Source: an uncultured Spartobacteria bacterium (GTDB lineage: Bacteria; Verrucomicrobiota; Verrucomicrobiia; Chthoniobacterales; Chthoniobacteraceae). From it: a stretch of DNA of 35,997 nt. The notes under the pieces were generated by a model. It did no database searches. It had not been told where the DNA came from and was given only the letters and a program-made list of their open reading frames with translations. Both the position numbers and the translations under genes were made by a program. The DNA is taken from positions 1-35,997 of the forward strand of contig CAIXGS010000069.1 of the NCBI GenBank assembly GCA_903919125.1, written 5' to 3'. This document shows, piece after piece, positions 1 to 35,997 of the stretch (within the stretch, counting starts at the first letter, position 1; every line of letters begins with the position of its first letter).

Positions 1-299
1 AACGTTTCGGCTCCATAAGAGCACTCAGCTAGGCGCAGGCGTTCGACGAGTCCGTGATCCGTGGGAAGATTCTCTGGGGCTGGGCGTTTTGGAACCTCCA
101 ATAAAATGTGGAAATGGTTGATCATTACGCAAAACGAAAGAACCCGAACTCCACAGTAGATCTCGTAACGCCGCATTAGTTTTACAAAAGTTTCCTTTTC
201 CAACTCGCCCAGAACAAAGTTCCTGTCTACCACCCTGGAAACACAATGGTAGTGAGCGACCTGCACCGAAGCCTCGGCCTTGAATCTCGCGCGCCTCAT
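1..299 (-). CDS. RAYT/Y1 transposase, copy 1, cut by window edge
   Basis: This is the N-terminal part of a REP-associated tyrosine transposase (Y1_Tnp, HUH superfamily), which cuts single-stranded DNA at REP hairpins through a catalytic tyrosine. The ATG at 299 opens MRRARFKAEASVQVAHYHC, and the frame stays open to base 1, so the C-terminus lies outside the window. The HUH motif is intact (NHFHILLE), preceded by CVMI where copy 2 has CIMT. It corresponds base for base to copy 2 at an offset of 787 bp, with 13 mismatches over 362 positions. The start follows a 31-bp repeat unit (330-360) that lies upstream of the gene, as expected for RAYT-REP pairs. Whether the copy is functional cannot be judged because the tyrosine region is not visible. 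Confidence 0.75.
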   Translation of the reverse strand, partial: MRRARFKAEASVQVAHYHCVSRVVDRNFVLGELEKETFVKLMRRYEIYCGVRVLSFCVMINHFHILLEVPKRPAPENLPTDHGLVERLRLAECSYGAET

Positions 300-604: not shown

Positions 605-635
605 AGGTTTTACCGGAGTGTCTGTCCCCTGCGTT
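605..635 (+). repeat. REP-like unit B
   Basis: A 31-bp unit with the ACCGGAG variant of the centre. It lies inside the 3' end of the copy 2 transposase, whose last residues (RGQTLR and stop) are encoded by the repeat. Confidence 0.85.
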
Positions 636-1086
636 TCCTATGGATCGTGTTGAACCACTGGGAGAATCGCTGTTTGAGCAGCCTCATAAAAAAGCTAACG
701 TCCCACATGTGTGCGAAAAATCGCTCCCTGAGCGCCTCGGCCTCCATCACCCGGCTAGCCTGACGTAGGGCCGCTAATTGCTGGGCCAACGTTTCGGCTC
801 CATAAGAGCACTCAGCTAGGCGCAGGCGTTCGACGAGTCCGTGATCCGTGGGAAGATTCTCTGGGGCTGGGCGTTTTGGAACCTCCAATAAAATGTGGAA
901 ATGGTTCGTCATGATGCAAAACGAAAGAACCCGAACCCCGCAGTAGGTTTCGTAACGCCGCATCAGTTTTACAAAAGTTTCCTTCTCCAACTCGCCCAGA
1001 ACAAAGTTCCTGTCTACCACTCTGGAAACACAATGGTAGTGAGCGACCTGCACCGAAGCCTCGGCCTTGAATCTCGCGCGCCTCAT
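610..1086 (-). pseudogene. RAYT/Y1 transposase, copy 2, C-terminus replaced by REP unit
   Basis: A REP-associated tyrosine transposase of 158 codons from the ATG at 1086, equivalent to the copy 1 start. A longer in-frame start at 1224 would read through repeat unit C and is unlikely. The HUH motif lies at residues 61-68 (NHFHILLE, HFH at 62-64), and the helix SFFMRLLKQRFSQWFN at 131-146. RAYTs of this group normally continue with an Rx(R)GxLWxxRF-type motif and about 40 more residues. Here the reading goes HRKRRG and then QTLR-stop, and those last codons belong to repeat unit B. The gene therefore appears truncated precisely at the repeat, perhaps through the shared CGCAGGGGA. It is likely an inactive or internally deleted copy. 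Confidence 0.75.
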
Positions 1087-1149
1087 ACACCCCTTGCTAC
1101 GGATGCGACGGGGAAAAGGTTTTACCCGAGTGTCTGTCCCCTGCGTTTC
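788..1149. repeat. Long direct repeat, copy 2
   Basis: Partner of 1-362 at an offset of 787 bp in the same orientation. It covers the transposase from just after the HUH domain back through its start, to repeat unit C. Sequence identity ends abruptly on the right, two bases beyond the repeat unit. Confidence 0.92.
1117..1147 (+). repeat. REP-like unit C
   Basis: A 31-bp unit (centre ACCCGAG) 31 bp upstream of the copy 2 transposase start, matching unit A in position and differing from it at one base. Confidence 0.85.
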
Positions 1150-1224
1150 TTCCAGGTGGCCGAGAAGTGCGGCTTGGGCGGCAATCCACAAAGTGGCAAA
1201 CAGACTCACCCGCAGGGGTTTCAA
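1148..1224 (-). pseudogene. Possible exported-protein N-terminus cut by REP unit C
   Basis: From an ATG at 1224 the frame reads MKPLRVSLFATLWIAAQAAL then LGHLEE before running into the repeat. It has a basic N-terminus, a hydrophobic core and an AQA-like cleavage site, like a Sec signal peptide without its mature protein. The arrangement parallels the fragment at unit A. The piece is short and could be chance. Confidence 0.22.
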
Positions 1225-4704: not shown

Positions 4705-4734
4705 GGGTTTTACCCAAGTGTCTGTCACTGCGCT
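4705..4734 (+). repeat. REP-like unit D
   Basis: A 30-bp unit diverged in its second half (TCTGTCACTGCGCT, with one C lost and one changed base). It sits directly before the HEPN-like gene scrap. Confidence 0.75.
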
Positions 4735-4741
4735 TACGCTT

Positions 4742-4914: not shown

Positions 4915-5400
4915 ATGATTCCAGACAAACAGGCGCTGCTGCGGCAGCTTATTGAACAGTTGGTCGAGCGGCTTTCCGGATTCGACAAATCGGCGCGGGA
5001 GGCTCATGCCGAGGCGACTCACGAACAAAACAAGGCTGAAAACAAATATGACACCCGTGCGATCGAGGCGTCTTATCTGGCAGAGGGGCAGGCGCGTCAG
5101 GCGGCCGAGGTGGCCGGCTCGATCCAGGCACTGGGGGGCATGACTCTCCGCGATTTCGGTCCGGCGACTCCCATTGCACCCGGGGCGCTGGTGCAGTTGG
5201 AGGGCAACGGTGAGGTTGCCTGGTATTTCATAGCCTCCTGCGCAGGCGGCGCGGAGTTGGTGTCCGCGGGACTTTCGGTGCTGGTGCTCACGCCGCAGTC
5301 ACCCTTGGGCGGCGCATTGACCGGGCTGAAGGCGGGCGGCAAGTTCAAGCTGCAGTTTGGCTGGGAGCGGGTGGCGTACACGGTCAAGTCTGTGCACTGA
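4915..5400 (+). CDS. GreA/GreB C-terminal-like protein
   Basis: A 161-residue protein. Residues 1-85 form a charged helical region containing ENKYDTRAIEASYLAEGQAR, typical of the short GreAB-related proteins of Proteobacteria and PVC bacteria. Residues 100-158 resemble the C-terminal domain of GreA/GreB, including TPQSPLGGALTGLKAGGKF. True Gre factors use an acidic N-terminal hairpin to stimulate transcript cleavage in stalled RNA polymerase. Here the N-terminal half is short and its tip acidic pair is not evident, so binding to polymerase is plausible while cleavage activity is uncertain. The gene stands alone between repeat units D and E, ending 37 bp before unit E. Its high GC content differs from the AT-rich M48 gene. 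Confidence 0.75.
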   Translation: MIPDKQALLRQLIEQLVERLSGFDKSAREAHAEATHEQNKAENKYDTRAIEASYLAEGQARQAAEVAGSIQALGGMTLRDFGPATPIAPGALVQLEGNGEVAWYFIASCAGGAELVSAGLSVLVLTPQSPLGGALTGLKAGGKFKLQFGWERVAYTVKSVH

Positions 5401-5437: not shown

Positions 5438-5468
5438 AGGTTTTACCGGAGTGTCTGTCCCCTGCGCT
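5438..5468 (+). repeat. REP-like unit E
   Basis: A 31-bp unit (centre ACCGGAG, like unit B) 37 bp after the GreAB-like gene. It opens a four-unit cluster. Confidence 0.85.
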
Positions 5469-5551
5469 CTCGGCGTCAAAGAAAGAGGTCCAATTGCCAG
5501 TACAAGCATCACACCTAATCAGCGTAATGACGGATGGAGGACACCGATTTG

Positions 5552-5581
5552 AGGTTTTACCCAAGTGTCTGTCCCTGCGCT
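5552..5581 (+). repeat. REP-like unit F
   Basis: A 30-bp unit (centre ACCCAAG, one C missing in the CCCC run). It is followed after 6 bp by the captured alkene reductase fragment. Confidence 0.85.
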
Positions 5582-5587
5582 CGCGCT

Positions 5588-5633
5588 CGCCGATCGCGCC
5601 TTCAGCCGTTAAACCCAAGGGGCAGGGTTTCAC
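5588..5633 (+). repeat. 46-bp copy of an alkene reductase gene segment
   Basis: Bases 5588-5626 are identical to 7335-7373 inside the alkene reductase gene, and 5628-5633 match 7375-7380 after one mismatch (45 of 46). The segment encodes residues of about 117-132 of that enzyme (PIAPSAVKPKGQ region). It lies between repeat units F and G in the same orientation as the gene. Identity at third codon positions shows a DNA copy rather than protein-level conservation. Confidence 0.9.
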
Positions 5634-5640
5634 CGCGCCG

Positions 5641-5661
5641 CAAGTGTCTGTCCCCTGCGTT
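5641..5661 (+). repeat. REP-like unit G (half unit)
   Basis: Only the second half of the consensus is present (AAGTGTCTGTCCCCTGCGTT). The first half is taken by the captured gene fragment, whose end CAGGGTTTCACC resembles the missing AGGTTTTACC. Confidence 0.8.
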
Positions 5662-5684
5662 CCGCCTCATTTATGCGGAGGCGG
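5662..5684. repeat. Short inverted repeat after unit G
   Basis: CCGCCTC and GAGGCGG form a 7-bp perfect stem around a 9-nt loop directly after unit G. No T-tract follows, so it is not an intrinsic terminator. It may be a REP-type hairpin. Confidence 0.45.
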
Positions 5685-5807
5685 GATTGCGCCGGTTGGT
5701 CGCCCAGATTTATCCGGGTGGCGAATACCAAGGCCAAGGAGACTTCGCCTCACCAAACTCGCAGAAAAGGTAATCAGGCATGCCGTAGCGATTATGTCGC
5801 GATTTGA

Positions 5808-5826
5808 AAGTGTCTGTCCCTGCGCT
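5808..5826 (+). repeat. REP-like unit H (half unit)
   Basis: The second half of the consensus only (AAGTGTCTGTCCCTGCGCT), followed by GC-rich runs of tgcgctcg-like sequence to about 5870. It is the last unit of the cluster. Confidence 0.75.
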
Positions 5827-5936
5827 CGGCGCTCGCGCTGCGCTTGGTCCCTGCGCTCGCGGCGCGATATCCATAGCGTTCCAAGGAGACAGAAAGGACC
5901 GGCGGACAGACTTTCATAGACGCCACGCAGTCTTAC

Positions 5937-5971: not shown

Positions 5972-6253
5972 ATGATCGCCACACTTACGAGTAAAGGTCA
6001 AATCACCATCCCACTCGCTATTCGGCAACGTCTGCATCTTCAGGCAGGAGATCAATTAGAGTTCGATGAGAAAGCTCCCATTCTCGTAGCACGTCGTGTG
6101 GTGAATCGAGCGGCGTGGGAATCCACCATAAGCGAGTGGCGCCTTGCTGCTCAATCCGCTCTTCAGAATCATCCTTGGGAATCGCAAACAGCCGCCTCTG
6201 TTGTGGATGACCTCCGGGGCGGCCCTGCAGATTCAATGGAAGCGTTGACATGA
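5972..6253 (+). CDS. AbrB/MazE-family antitoxin (VapB-type)
   Basis: A 93-residue antitoxin. Residues 1-45 are a SpoVT-AbrB swapped-hairpin DNA-binding domain (LTSKGQITIPLAIRQRLHLQ, then GDQLEF). Residues 46-93 form a tail expected to wrap and inhibit the toxin. The stop overlaps the toxin start as ATGA (6250-6253), the usual translational coupling of such pairs. The start follows a strong promoter by only a few bases, leaving no room for a ribosome binding site, which suggests leaderless translation of the first gene. Autorepression through the palindrome at 5947-5961 is likely but inferred. Confidence 0.88.
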   Translation: MIATLTSKGQITIPLAIRQRLHLQAGDQLEFDEKAPILVARRVVNRAAWESTISEWRLAAQSALQNHPWESQTAASVVDDLRGGPADSMEALT

Positions 6254-6690
6254 CTACCGCCATTGATTCGTCAGTGATCTGGGCCATTCTCAAAAAAGAG
6301 AAAGGATGCGAAGGATGGTTGAAAGTGTTGTTTAAGGCGGCAGAAGAAGGCCCGCTTCTACTTTGTTCTGTAAGTTTTGCAGAGCTCGCACCGACAACTT
6401 CAAACGCTGCAGAGCTGTGCCACTTTCTCGATACCCTCACGGTGAAGTATAGTCCTTTGGTGCCAGACGCAGCACACCTCGCAGGAACCATGTTTAAGCG
6501 TTACAGGCAAGCCGGTGGCCCACGGGAGCATTTGGTGCCAGACTTTCTAATCGCAGCTCACGCAAGCATCCAGGCAGATCGTCTCGCGGCAATTGACCGA
6601 GGTTATCTGCGCCGGTGGTTCCCGGAACTCACGCTTCTGACTCCCGGACCGCTTAATCAGGAGTTCGGTAGCAACGGACCAGGAAACTAG
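6250..6690 (+). CDS. PIN-domain ribonuclease toxin (VapC-type)
   Basis: A 146-residue PIN-domain protein. VapC toxins are Mg-dependent RNases that cut tRNA or rRNA. The acidic site is complete: Asp6 in AIDSSVIWAIL, Glu45 in SFAELAP, Asp98 in VPDFLIAAHA and Asp116 in AAIDRGYL. The C-terminus RWFPELTLL matches the family's last strand. Start and frame are fixed by the ATGA overlap with the antitoxin. All key residues are present, so the module looks active. It lies directly after the repeat island, a typical accessory position. The RNA target cannot be predicted. Confidence 0.9.
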   Translation: MTTAIDSSVIWAILKKEKGCEGWLKVLFKAAEEGPLLLCSVSFAELAPTTSNAAELCHFLDTLTVKYSPLVPDAAHLAGTMFKRYRQAGGPREHLVPDFLIAAHASIQADRLAAIDRGYLRRWFPELTLLTPGPLNQEFGSNGPGN

Positions 6691-6985
6691 GGGTCAGTGT
6701 TCATTTTCTTTCATGGCCACCCCGCAGGGATGAGGCGGAAGAAAAAGGTGGGCTGGAGAAAGGAGCCTTACCACTCGGTGGGCTTGCGAACCAAAAACCA
6801 GCCCGCAGCGTTGGCGAAATGGCAAGATTTGGCAGATATCCCATTTCGTGAGTCAGGCGCTCGACTTCGCTCAGGCTTATTGCTCGCCTATCAAATGGGG
6901 CGTTCATTACCCTGCAGATCCTGCGAGTGCTCCGAACGCCGCTAGCAGTGTAGCCCAAAACTTTCCAATCCTTCGAAAATCTAAA
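6691..6985. other. Intergenic stretch before the alkene reductase
   Basis: No gene is evident. An 8-bp inverted repeat, CGAAATGG (6815-6822) and CCATTTCG (6841-6848), is present with an 18-nt loop. On the minus strand one frame reads FDRRAISLSEVERLTHEMGY, which looks protein-like, but I recognise no family and it is probably chance. Confidence 0.4.
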
Positions 6986-8071
6986 ATGACACCAGACCTT
7001 TTCACTCCGCTTCAACTCGGAGCCGTTCACACTTCCAACCGTATTTACCTCGCCCCGCTCACTCGTTGTCGGGCCGAGTCGGGAAATGTGCCTTGCGATT
7101 TAAACGCTGAGTACTACCGGCAACGAGCTTCCGGCGGCCTTTTGATCGCCGAGGCCACCTCGGTCTCACCGCTTGGTTATGGCTATCCAAACACCCCCGG
7201 AATCTTTAACGACGCACACGTCGCCGGTTGGAAAAAAGTCACCAATGCAGTTCACGAGGCAGGTGGTCTCATTTTCCTGCAGTTGTGGCACGTCGGTCGC
7301 GTATCTCACCCCATTTTCCAGCCCTCCGGTGGAACGCCGATCGCGCCTTCAGCCGTTAAACCCAAGGGGCAGGTTTTCACAGGCACTGAGATGGCCGACT
7401 ACGTAACACCGCGCGCTCTTGAAAGGGAGGAGATCCCAGGAATCATCGCTGAATACGCTCATGGCGCAGCGGCTGCAAAGGCGGCCGGCTTCGATGGGGT
7501 GGAAATTCACAATGCCAATGGGTACCTGCTCGACCAGTTTTTGCGGGACTCAACCAACCTGCGCACCGATGAATATGGCGGCTCGGTCGAGAACCGCGCC
7601 CGTCTCACCATGGAAGTTACCGAGGCAGTGGTTAGCGTTTGGGGTGCGGACCGAGTGGGTATTCGGTTTTCTCCGGGTGGCGTATTTAACGATATGCACG
7701 ATTCTAACCCGCTTCATACTTTTGGTTACGTGCTCGAGCAACTCAGCCCGCTCCAACTCGCCTACGCTCATGTCACCGGAGTGACTGCGCAGGACGTCGC
7801 GCACGGAGCGGTGAAGGGAATCGGGCCGCGCGAATTACGTCCGAAGTATAAGGGTAACCTCATCGCAAACGGTGGGTTTACTCTGGAGAGCGGCAATCAG
7901 GCGCTGAAGGAGGGCTGGGCGGATGCTGTGGCTTTCGGCGTGCCGTTTCTCGCCAATCCAGACCTTCCCGAAAGATTGCGTGCCGGCGCCCCGCTCAACG
8001 AGGCCGACCCTTCTACTTTCTACGCTTCGGGAGCCAAGGGTTACACCGATTATCCGTTTCTTCAGAAATAG
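6986..8071 (+). CDS. Alkene reductase, old yellow enzyme family
   Basis: An FMN-dependent enzyme that reduces activated C=C bonds (enones, nitro or nitrate esters) with NAD(P)H, 361 residues, the usual NemA-like length. Visible motifs are LFTPLQLG at the N-terminus, APLTRCRA with the FMN-contacting Thr26, QLWHVGR (99-105), and GVEIHNANGYLLDQF with the substrate-binding His175/Asn178 pair and Tyr180. The C-terminal NGG and AFGVPFLANPDLPERL phosphate-binding region closes the barrel. The ATG at 6986 gives the family N-terminus; an earlier in-frame ATG at 6848 would add 46 unrelated residues. It is convergent with the propeller gene, 75 bp apart. A 46-bp internal piece is duplicated at 5588-5633. 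Confidence 0.92.
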   Translation: MTPDLFTPLQLGAVHTSNRIYLAPLTRCRAESGNVPCDLNAEYYRQRASGGLLIAEATSVSPLGYGYPNTPGIFNDAHVAGWKKVTNAVHEAGGLIFLQLWHVGRVSHPIFQPSGGTPIAPSAVKPKGQVFTGTEMADYVTPRALEREEIPGIIAEYAHGAAAAKAAGFDGVEIHNANGYLLDQFLRDSTNLRTDEYGGSVENRARLTMEVTEAVVSVWGADRVGIRFSPGGVFNDMHDSNPLHTFGYVLEQLSPLQLAYAHVTGVTAQDVAHGAVKGIGPRELRPKYKGNLIANGGFTLESGNQALKEGWADAVAFGVPFLANPDLPERLRAGAPLNEADPSTFYASGAKGYTDYPFLQK

Positions 8072-35616: not shown

Positions 35617-35709
35617 GAGTTCAGGGCGTCTTTCGTGGGATTTTTACGCCAACCAAAAGGAGTGCCGTACCGCGATCACTCGAAAAAGCGCCTTAACTAA
35701 GTGCCATTC
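35607..35709. repeat. Inverted repeat flanking an 83-nt interval or so
   Basis: GAATGGCACTGAGTTCAGG (35607-35625) and CCTTAACTAAGTGCCATTC (35691-35709) are inverted with 17 of 19 matches, the outer 10 bp perfect. The interval carries no gene. It may be the ends of a small non-autonomous element or two head-to-head REP units. Confidence 0.65.
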
Positions 35710-35755
35710 GTGCCCGTCCCCCTCGCGCCATCGCTCACGCTTTTAGGTTTGTTCC

Positions 35756-35770
35756 GATGCCGGAGGCATC
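35756..35770. repeat. Palindrome GATGCC-GGA-GGCATC
   Basis: A perfect 6-bp stem with a 3-nt loop. No T-tract follows. First of three GATGC-type hairpins in 200 bp. Confidence 0.7.
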
Positions 35771-35831
35771 AAAGCCATTAGCGGTCGGTTGAGCGAAGCG
35801 ACACCACCGGATGCGATACAAAAAACGCCAC

Positions 35832-35848
35832 GCATCCCATAGGGATGC
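35832..35848. repeat. Palindrome GCATCCC-ATA-GGGATGC
   Basis: A perfect 7-bp stem with a 3-nt loop inside the long-range inverted repeat. Confidence 0.75.
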
Positions 35849-35945
35849 CAGCCCTTCCATGCTGCTGTGCCATTGTTATTTCGCGCCGACGCCCAACGTG
35901 TGTCCCACACAAGATGGCTTGTTTTGCCCTTAACGCCTCGCCGCT

Positions 35946-35964
35946 AGCATCCCTCTGGGATGCT
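35946..35964. repeat. Palindrome AGCATCCC-TCT-GGGATGCT
   Basis: A perfect 8-bp stem with a 3-nt loop. It shares the GCATCCC/GGGATGC arms with the palindrome at 35832, with a compensated extension by one pair. Confidence 0.75.
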
Positions 35965-35997
35965 TGCCGTTCCGGCCTGACAAACCGGTGGTGTCGT

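Follow-up and report, generated by a model that had tools for sequence, protein, structure and literature searches.

A short copy of an alkene-reductase gene between RAYT-associated repeat units, and duplicated segments at the ends of the same repeat, in a Spartobacteria genome

A 46-bp stretch between two short repeat units of an uncultured Spartobacteria bacterium is a copy of part of a nearby alkene-reductase gene. The case belongs to a pattern seen across the genome, in which short duplicated segments are joined precisely at units of the same repeat. The window, that is, the whole stretch of DNA analysed here (35,997 nucleotides), makes up the entire contig C69; the genome, 95% complete, comprises 87 contigs and 4.34 Mb. 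According to the explanation that we favour, and to which we give an even chance, the 46 bp would be a templated copy pasted between REP-like units associated with a RAYT transposase, through RAYT-type cleavage and healing from a nearby template.

As to how REP sequences spread, their transposases are able to cleave and rejoin single strands in vitro, but few natural footprints of the events at the cut are available. Units that stand where copied host sequence is joined are footprints of this kind; they would let the mechanism be read off genome sequence, and they show a route by which short gene pieces are reshuffled in bacteria.

The 46-bp copy and its island

The copy (5588-5633, forward strand) lies between two repeat units and, as originally predicted, agrees with positions 7335-7380 at 45 of 46 bases in the same orientation; the alignment is ungapped and the source gene intact. 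The two stretches differ only at G5627 (T7374 in the gene). When a 71-base query over the fragment was searched against the whole 4.34-Mb genome, it matched two places only, the stretches at 5588 and 7335; the fragment is therefore no dispersed repeat, and the possibility that the 46 bp recur at many unrelated loci, which had been named as a refutation, did not materialise. At such a length, a chance match to the gene can be regarded as out of the question.

The source stretch (forward strand) encodes PIAPSAVKPKGQVFT and lies in an ORF at 6848-8071 (forward strand), whose true start is likely downstream of the GTG. The protein matches the old yellow enzyme family Oxidored_FMN (Pfam PF00724, E 1.2e-79), and its top NCBIfam match is N-ethylmaleimide reductase, with a score under the model cut-off. 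The orthologues in two congeners (G009 and G001) show 83% and 80% identity to the fragment, respectively. Both share the T of the alkene-reductase gene at the mismatch site, against G in the fragment, which makes the gene the source and the fragment the altered copy. In addition, the fragment ends in CACCG, as do the orthologues, while the host's own gene today reads CACAG; the copied stretch therefore probably measured 46 to 48 bases.

The island holds four units, all on the forward strand. The first (5438-5473, core 5450-5461) carries the RAYT-leader arm AGGTTTTACC; the second (5552-5587, core 5564-5575) stands left of the fragment, with 12 nt between core and fragment; the third, unit G (5634-5666, core 5643-5654), stands on the right, with a gap of 9 nt; and the fourth lies at 5798-5832 (core 5809-5820). 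A degenerate unit is found at 4705-4740 (forward strand; core 4717-4728, one mismatch). There is no repeat unit at the donor stretch 7335-7380. Downstream of the island and ahead of the alkene-reductase gene, a MazE-like antitoxin gene (PF04014) is followed by a 146-aa ORF (5972-6690), and the two are likely a toxin-antitoxin pair.

The original prediction held that a repeat-like sequence in the gene had been used as a junction, since the gene reads AGGTTTTCAC at the fragment's end. The likeness of AGGTTTTCAC to AGGTTTTACC is real, but by eye no other fragment end shows anything of the kind; as a general junction the idea is not supported, as one case only shows one. The AGGTTTTACC half is indeed absent from unit G, as was also pointed out, but the significance given to its absence is not supported: with one mismatch allowed, no more than 17 of 160 exact cores have this arm. 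Because AGGTTTTACC is the RAYT leader, the stretch from the core to the RAYT gene start, and is rare at cores, the unit at 5643 is in the normal state without it. As a separate observation, ACAGGCACT at 7380-7388, directly where the source stretch ends, matches the core variant AGTGCCTGT in reverse complement, possibly by chance. Its reading as a cryptic unit in the alkene-reductase gene was rejected, being without parallel at the other donors and, on a rough count over 12 cases, at about the chance level.

The claim that the island acquires pieces of host genes is supported as a genome-wide pattern but does not extend to one insert, at 5670-5721 (forward strand). The syntenic position is marked by a conserved 161-aa neighbour gene (4915-5400, forward strand; 88% identity to genome G004 over 508 bp; no Pfam match), which in G004 and G005 forms a contiguous pair with a spermine-synthase-like gene downstream. 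In the host genome, the latter has been lost save for 5670-5721, which shows 88% identity to the G004 gene at the syntenic place and starts 15 nt past the core of unit G. Judged by this synteny, the segment is the relic of a gene lost in place rather than a capture; a paralogue on contig C45 was rejected as its source, with no alignable match at the DNA level. Since a copied scrap and a left-over scrap occur in one island, both abutting units, the island looks like a site of repeated breaking and patching.

The repeat unit and its transposase genes

The core AGTGTCTGTCCC is present in 161 exact copies in the genome, against 0 for the reversed control, and when one mismatch is allowed, ORFs of at least 150 aa contain 46 of 215 cores; the repeat is thus of high copy number and mostly extragenic, in the manner of REP/BIME sequences. 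Base preference around the core runs from about -12 to about +25, and the unit of ~35 bp is composed of about 11 nt, AGTGTCTGTCCC and about 12 nt. Identical 35-mers are shared by units within locus L057 (12085, 13803 and 16247) and between L051 (9620) and L092 (3239). This unit length, derived independently, agrees with the gaps of 7-15 nt between cores and fragments.

The units are mostly scattered, and their arms, G-rich on the left and C-rich on the right, differ in sequence from island to island. Several units look strikingly palindromic by eye (TGAGA...TCTCA and GGCAG...CTGCC), as if they formed hairpins with subfamily-specific arms, but arm complementarity was no better than in re-paired arms (longest stems 3.55 vs 3.57; stems of at least 5 in 21% vs 16%), and such hairpins are not claimed here. 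As for a GTAG (or CGTC-type) tag, the consensus around the core contains no GTAG. Among the 62 unit gaps of up to 400 bp, 37 are direct and the lengths are spread, and the units do not form the pairs of inverted REPs at fixed spacing that define REPINs. The core reaches up to 33 copies in congeners and in genus g3, most other relatives being without it, and a text search of the literature for it returned only unrelated primer-type matches. A second dispersed repeat family (GAATGGCACTTAGTTAAG... / CACCGGATGCGATAC...) is present in the window at 35649-35997 and at L055, L058, L072 and L092, often directly after unit cores and at contig ends.

The single-strand transposase of the original prediction is supported, in that the repeats go with a RAYT, an enzyme of the Y1 (HuH) kind. 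The nearest named relative of the host's transposase belongs to an uncultured Spartobacteria MAG, which places the host in the Verrucomicrobiota. Contig C36 carries an intact gene of the 335-aa class, with HFH at 63 and YVDLNP at 178, 115 residues apart, and a Pfam Y1_Tnp match (PF01797, E 3e-11); on the predicted domain together with the HuH and Y-x-x-x-NP motifs, its product can be classed as a RAYT. With 61.9 bits (E 5.7e-17) against the NCBIfam RAYT model NF047646, whose cut-off of 80 it does not reach, the protein would count as a relative that the model does not call. In the window, a RAYT remnant ORF occupies 610-1224 (reverse strand; PF01797, E 2.2e-9) with a core at 1129-1140 in its leader, a second remnant lies at 75-266 (reverse strand) with a core at 342-353 in its leader, and a further core (617-628, forward strand) adjoins a RAYT 3'-terminal remnant (638-774). 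Contig C49 has a separate IS200-type transposase.

The core stands in the leader, just upstream, of the C36 RAYT, of both window remnants and, beyond the host genome, of RAYTs from a sister genus and Chthoniobacteraceae MAGs (G020, L206 and L207), so these genes are flanked by the short repeat of their genome, as is typical of RAYTs. The leader order in the window copies and in C36 is GGGACAGACACT-CGGGTAAAACCTT-...-ATG, and the sister lineage (L206, L207) has GGGGACAGACACT-TTGGTAAGGCTT at the equivalent place. In G020, every unit array stands at a RAYT start, and RAYT-start pieces are found between units in G020 and G011 (L149, L150, L152 and L157). Prosthecobacter and other Verrucomicrobiota MAGs (L228-L281) contain RAYT relatives with 36-44% identity at many loci per genome, unlike RAYTs as usually described, which are of low copy number. 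Other short repeats precede the start at L213, L223 and L284.

Duplicated segments at the unit ends

It had been suggested that inter-repeat segments be aligned with the genome itself, and this alignment brought to light further short copied stretches beside the same repeat. The DNA between and beside the units was searched for matches first in 1.04 Mb and later in 1.84 Mb of the host genome, the latter being 42% of it and the coverage of the junction test; matches were counted if unique, at least 27 bp long and at least 93% identical, with a partner not near a unit. Rpn-type and RAYT-type matches (L073 1940, L072 9618 and window 638) were left out as paralogues or element remnants. The addition of 0.8 Mb of unit-poor contigs yielded no new partner.

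A duplicate edge was found within 20 nt of 14 of 217 cores, in comparison with 7 of 4000 anchors placed at random in intergenic DNA (odds ratio 39, p 5e-14, the cores of one island not being fully independent). The edges fall at the end of the unit, at a distance of 7-15 nt from the core. A different repeat of the host, used as a small control, gave 0 of 62. Counting L057, whose partner lies near a unit, there are 13 duplicated segments of 36-440 bp in total, so the 46-bp copy is not the isolated case that would have spoken against a capture process.

The partners of 9 of the 13 segments lie on the same contig, at a distance of 0.1-9.8 kb, and all of these are direct. Direct orientation was discarded as special evidence, as the background of same-locus duplications leans the same way (58 direct, 14 inverted); locality and orientation alone therefore point to no special enzyme. 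Several donors are non-ORF sequence, so that gene capture is not the rule. Taken together, the results suggest that the genome is cut at the repeats and mended there with sequence from the vicinity.

At the junctions compared, homology never resumes across the unit, which argues against a simple insertion of units into old duplicates. A unit lies within 30 nt at both ends in 5 of the 13 segments. At L057, the terminal 196 bp of a gene start immediately past a unit that is common to other L057 places, and L085, L091 and L068 are near-tandem duplications of 350-440 bp. At L092 (contig C79), a 45/45 match to C4:95119-95163 is followed, with no gap in between, by a 35/35 unit identical to C4:95619-95653, the 455 bp that separate the two at the source being missing. 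As both lie within one 535-bp stretch of C4, fragment and unit come from one neighbourhood. The loci of this chimeric fragment-unit module are L092:3160-3290 and L051:9100-9670.

Explanations and related systems

In the favoured explanation, a RAYT-like HuH transposase that acts on single strands would cut at or beside the unit while the unit is single-stranded; the freed 3' end, or a replication fork stalled there, would then copy a short nearby template, usually within a few kb, and the synthesis would return to the unit or be re-ligated, thereby giving rise to unit-fragment or unit-fragment-unit arrangements. TnpA-REP has been described to cleave REP single strands 5' or 3', leaving a free 3'-OH that might prime replication (PMC8266576). 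We infer the role of the transposase as the cause of the copying, the switch of template and the order of these steps. The enrichment of duplicate edges at the unit ends, the lack of homology beyond the unit, the pieces joined at L092 and the units in RAYT leaders speak for the explanation. Against it, the joins show no consistent cleavage dinucleotide, the unit lacks the classical GTAG palindrome, its arms are no more complementary than re-paired ones, and background duplications are typically local and direct as well. The present data do not separate template switching and one-ended transposition cleanly from RAYT cleavage. A wider claim, that the RAYT/REP system of freshwater Verrucomicrobiota (Spartobacteria) repeatedly copies pieces of ordinary host genes, joins them to units and builds or moves chimeric unit-fragment modules to new loci, as a bacterial counterpart of Helitron-style gene-fragment capture, appears unlikely.

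A lesser but real possibility is that the duplications arose independently of the transposase, by template switching or slippage at fragile or pausing units, the RAYT having spread the units and made no duplications. The mostly local and direct partners, which resemble the background duplications of the genome, are consistent with this possibility, as are the G-rich and C-rich arms; moreover, short templated insertions are well known in other organisms, and those of the MMBIR type likewise place short direct copies of nearby sequence at the join. However, the joins described here fall at the ends of one specific 35-bp repeat unit and not just anywhere near it, and at L092 the fragment and the unit moved together to another contig.

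The L092 module also bears on one-ended or aberrant single-strand transposition in the manner of Helitrons and IS91, by which a unit would move with its flanking DNA and gene pieces would travel along. We consider this quite improbable, although L092 joins a fragment to the very unit that lies 455 bp from the fragment's source, on another contig, Y1 transposases are single-strand enzymes, and RAYT-start pieces stand between units in G020 and G011. Helitron/IS91 capture (PMC4778049) is alike in the HuH single-strand enzyme family and in host gene pieces that adjoin element ends; it differs in that the units here are of ~35 bp, without a rolling-circle replicase, and the sources are mostly local. 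Furthermore, the DNA captured by Helitrons and IS91 adjoins an element end at the donor, whereas no unit adjoins the source at 7335-7380 or most other donors, L092/L051 being a partial exception. Most copies remain within a few kb, and the L092 pieces are not contiguous at their source.

It is very improbable that the units were inserted into or beside older, since decayed duplications, which would make the coincidence of edge and unit secondary; the near-tandem duplications at L085, L091 and L068 would fit such a history, but homology resumes beyond the unit in no case and the edges are enriched about 39-fold. An assembly error in the metagenome bin is scarcely credible: the genome is MAG-like, with 87 contigs, and a relative's repeat arrays sit at contig ends, but the copy has its own base change and is located in the middle of its contig, and a dozen loci, each with a source on the same contig, repeat the pattern.

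The original prediction compared the 46-bp case to spacer-like capture. In the CRISPR sense this comparison is not supported, as the segments are 36-440 bp long, their partners are mostly local and the repeat-spacer period is not fixed; repeats alternate with unique pieces in CRISPR arrays too, but here the gaps vary over 7-400 bp and the pieces come from the genome itself.

One of the closest systems is REP/BIME with its RAYT (TnpA-REP), which likewise has a short high-copy repeat at the RAYT leader and clusters with non-REP stretches between the repeats (PMC2817692). It differs in that pieces of unrelated host genes occur here too, a clear palindrome and a GTAG tag are missing from the unit, the units are mostly scattered and the arm sequences are island-specific. 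Four BIMEs were described as holding captured rayt 3' termini between their REPs, and a rolling-circle replication of BIMEs driven by RAYT was put forward (Nunvar et al., 2010; PMC2817692). The capture of rayt ends between REPs has thus been known since 2010 (PMC2817692), and pieces of unrelated host genes at the joins are seen here in addition; no report of the latter was found in the literature searched, which covered few subscription papers.

In Pseudomonas, tandem REPIN clusters are known in which the repeats have multiplied along with their flanks (Bertels and Rainey, 2011; PMC3116915). REPINs are inverted doublets at fixed spacing, whereas the units here are mostly single and direct; the G020 arrays likewise amplify repeats with flank. 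In the dense arrays of that genome (L145-L150 and L152), the units of an island all carry the bases that follow its last unit, as if the host flank had been copied along with every new unit.
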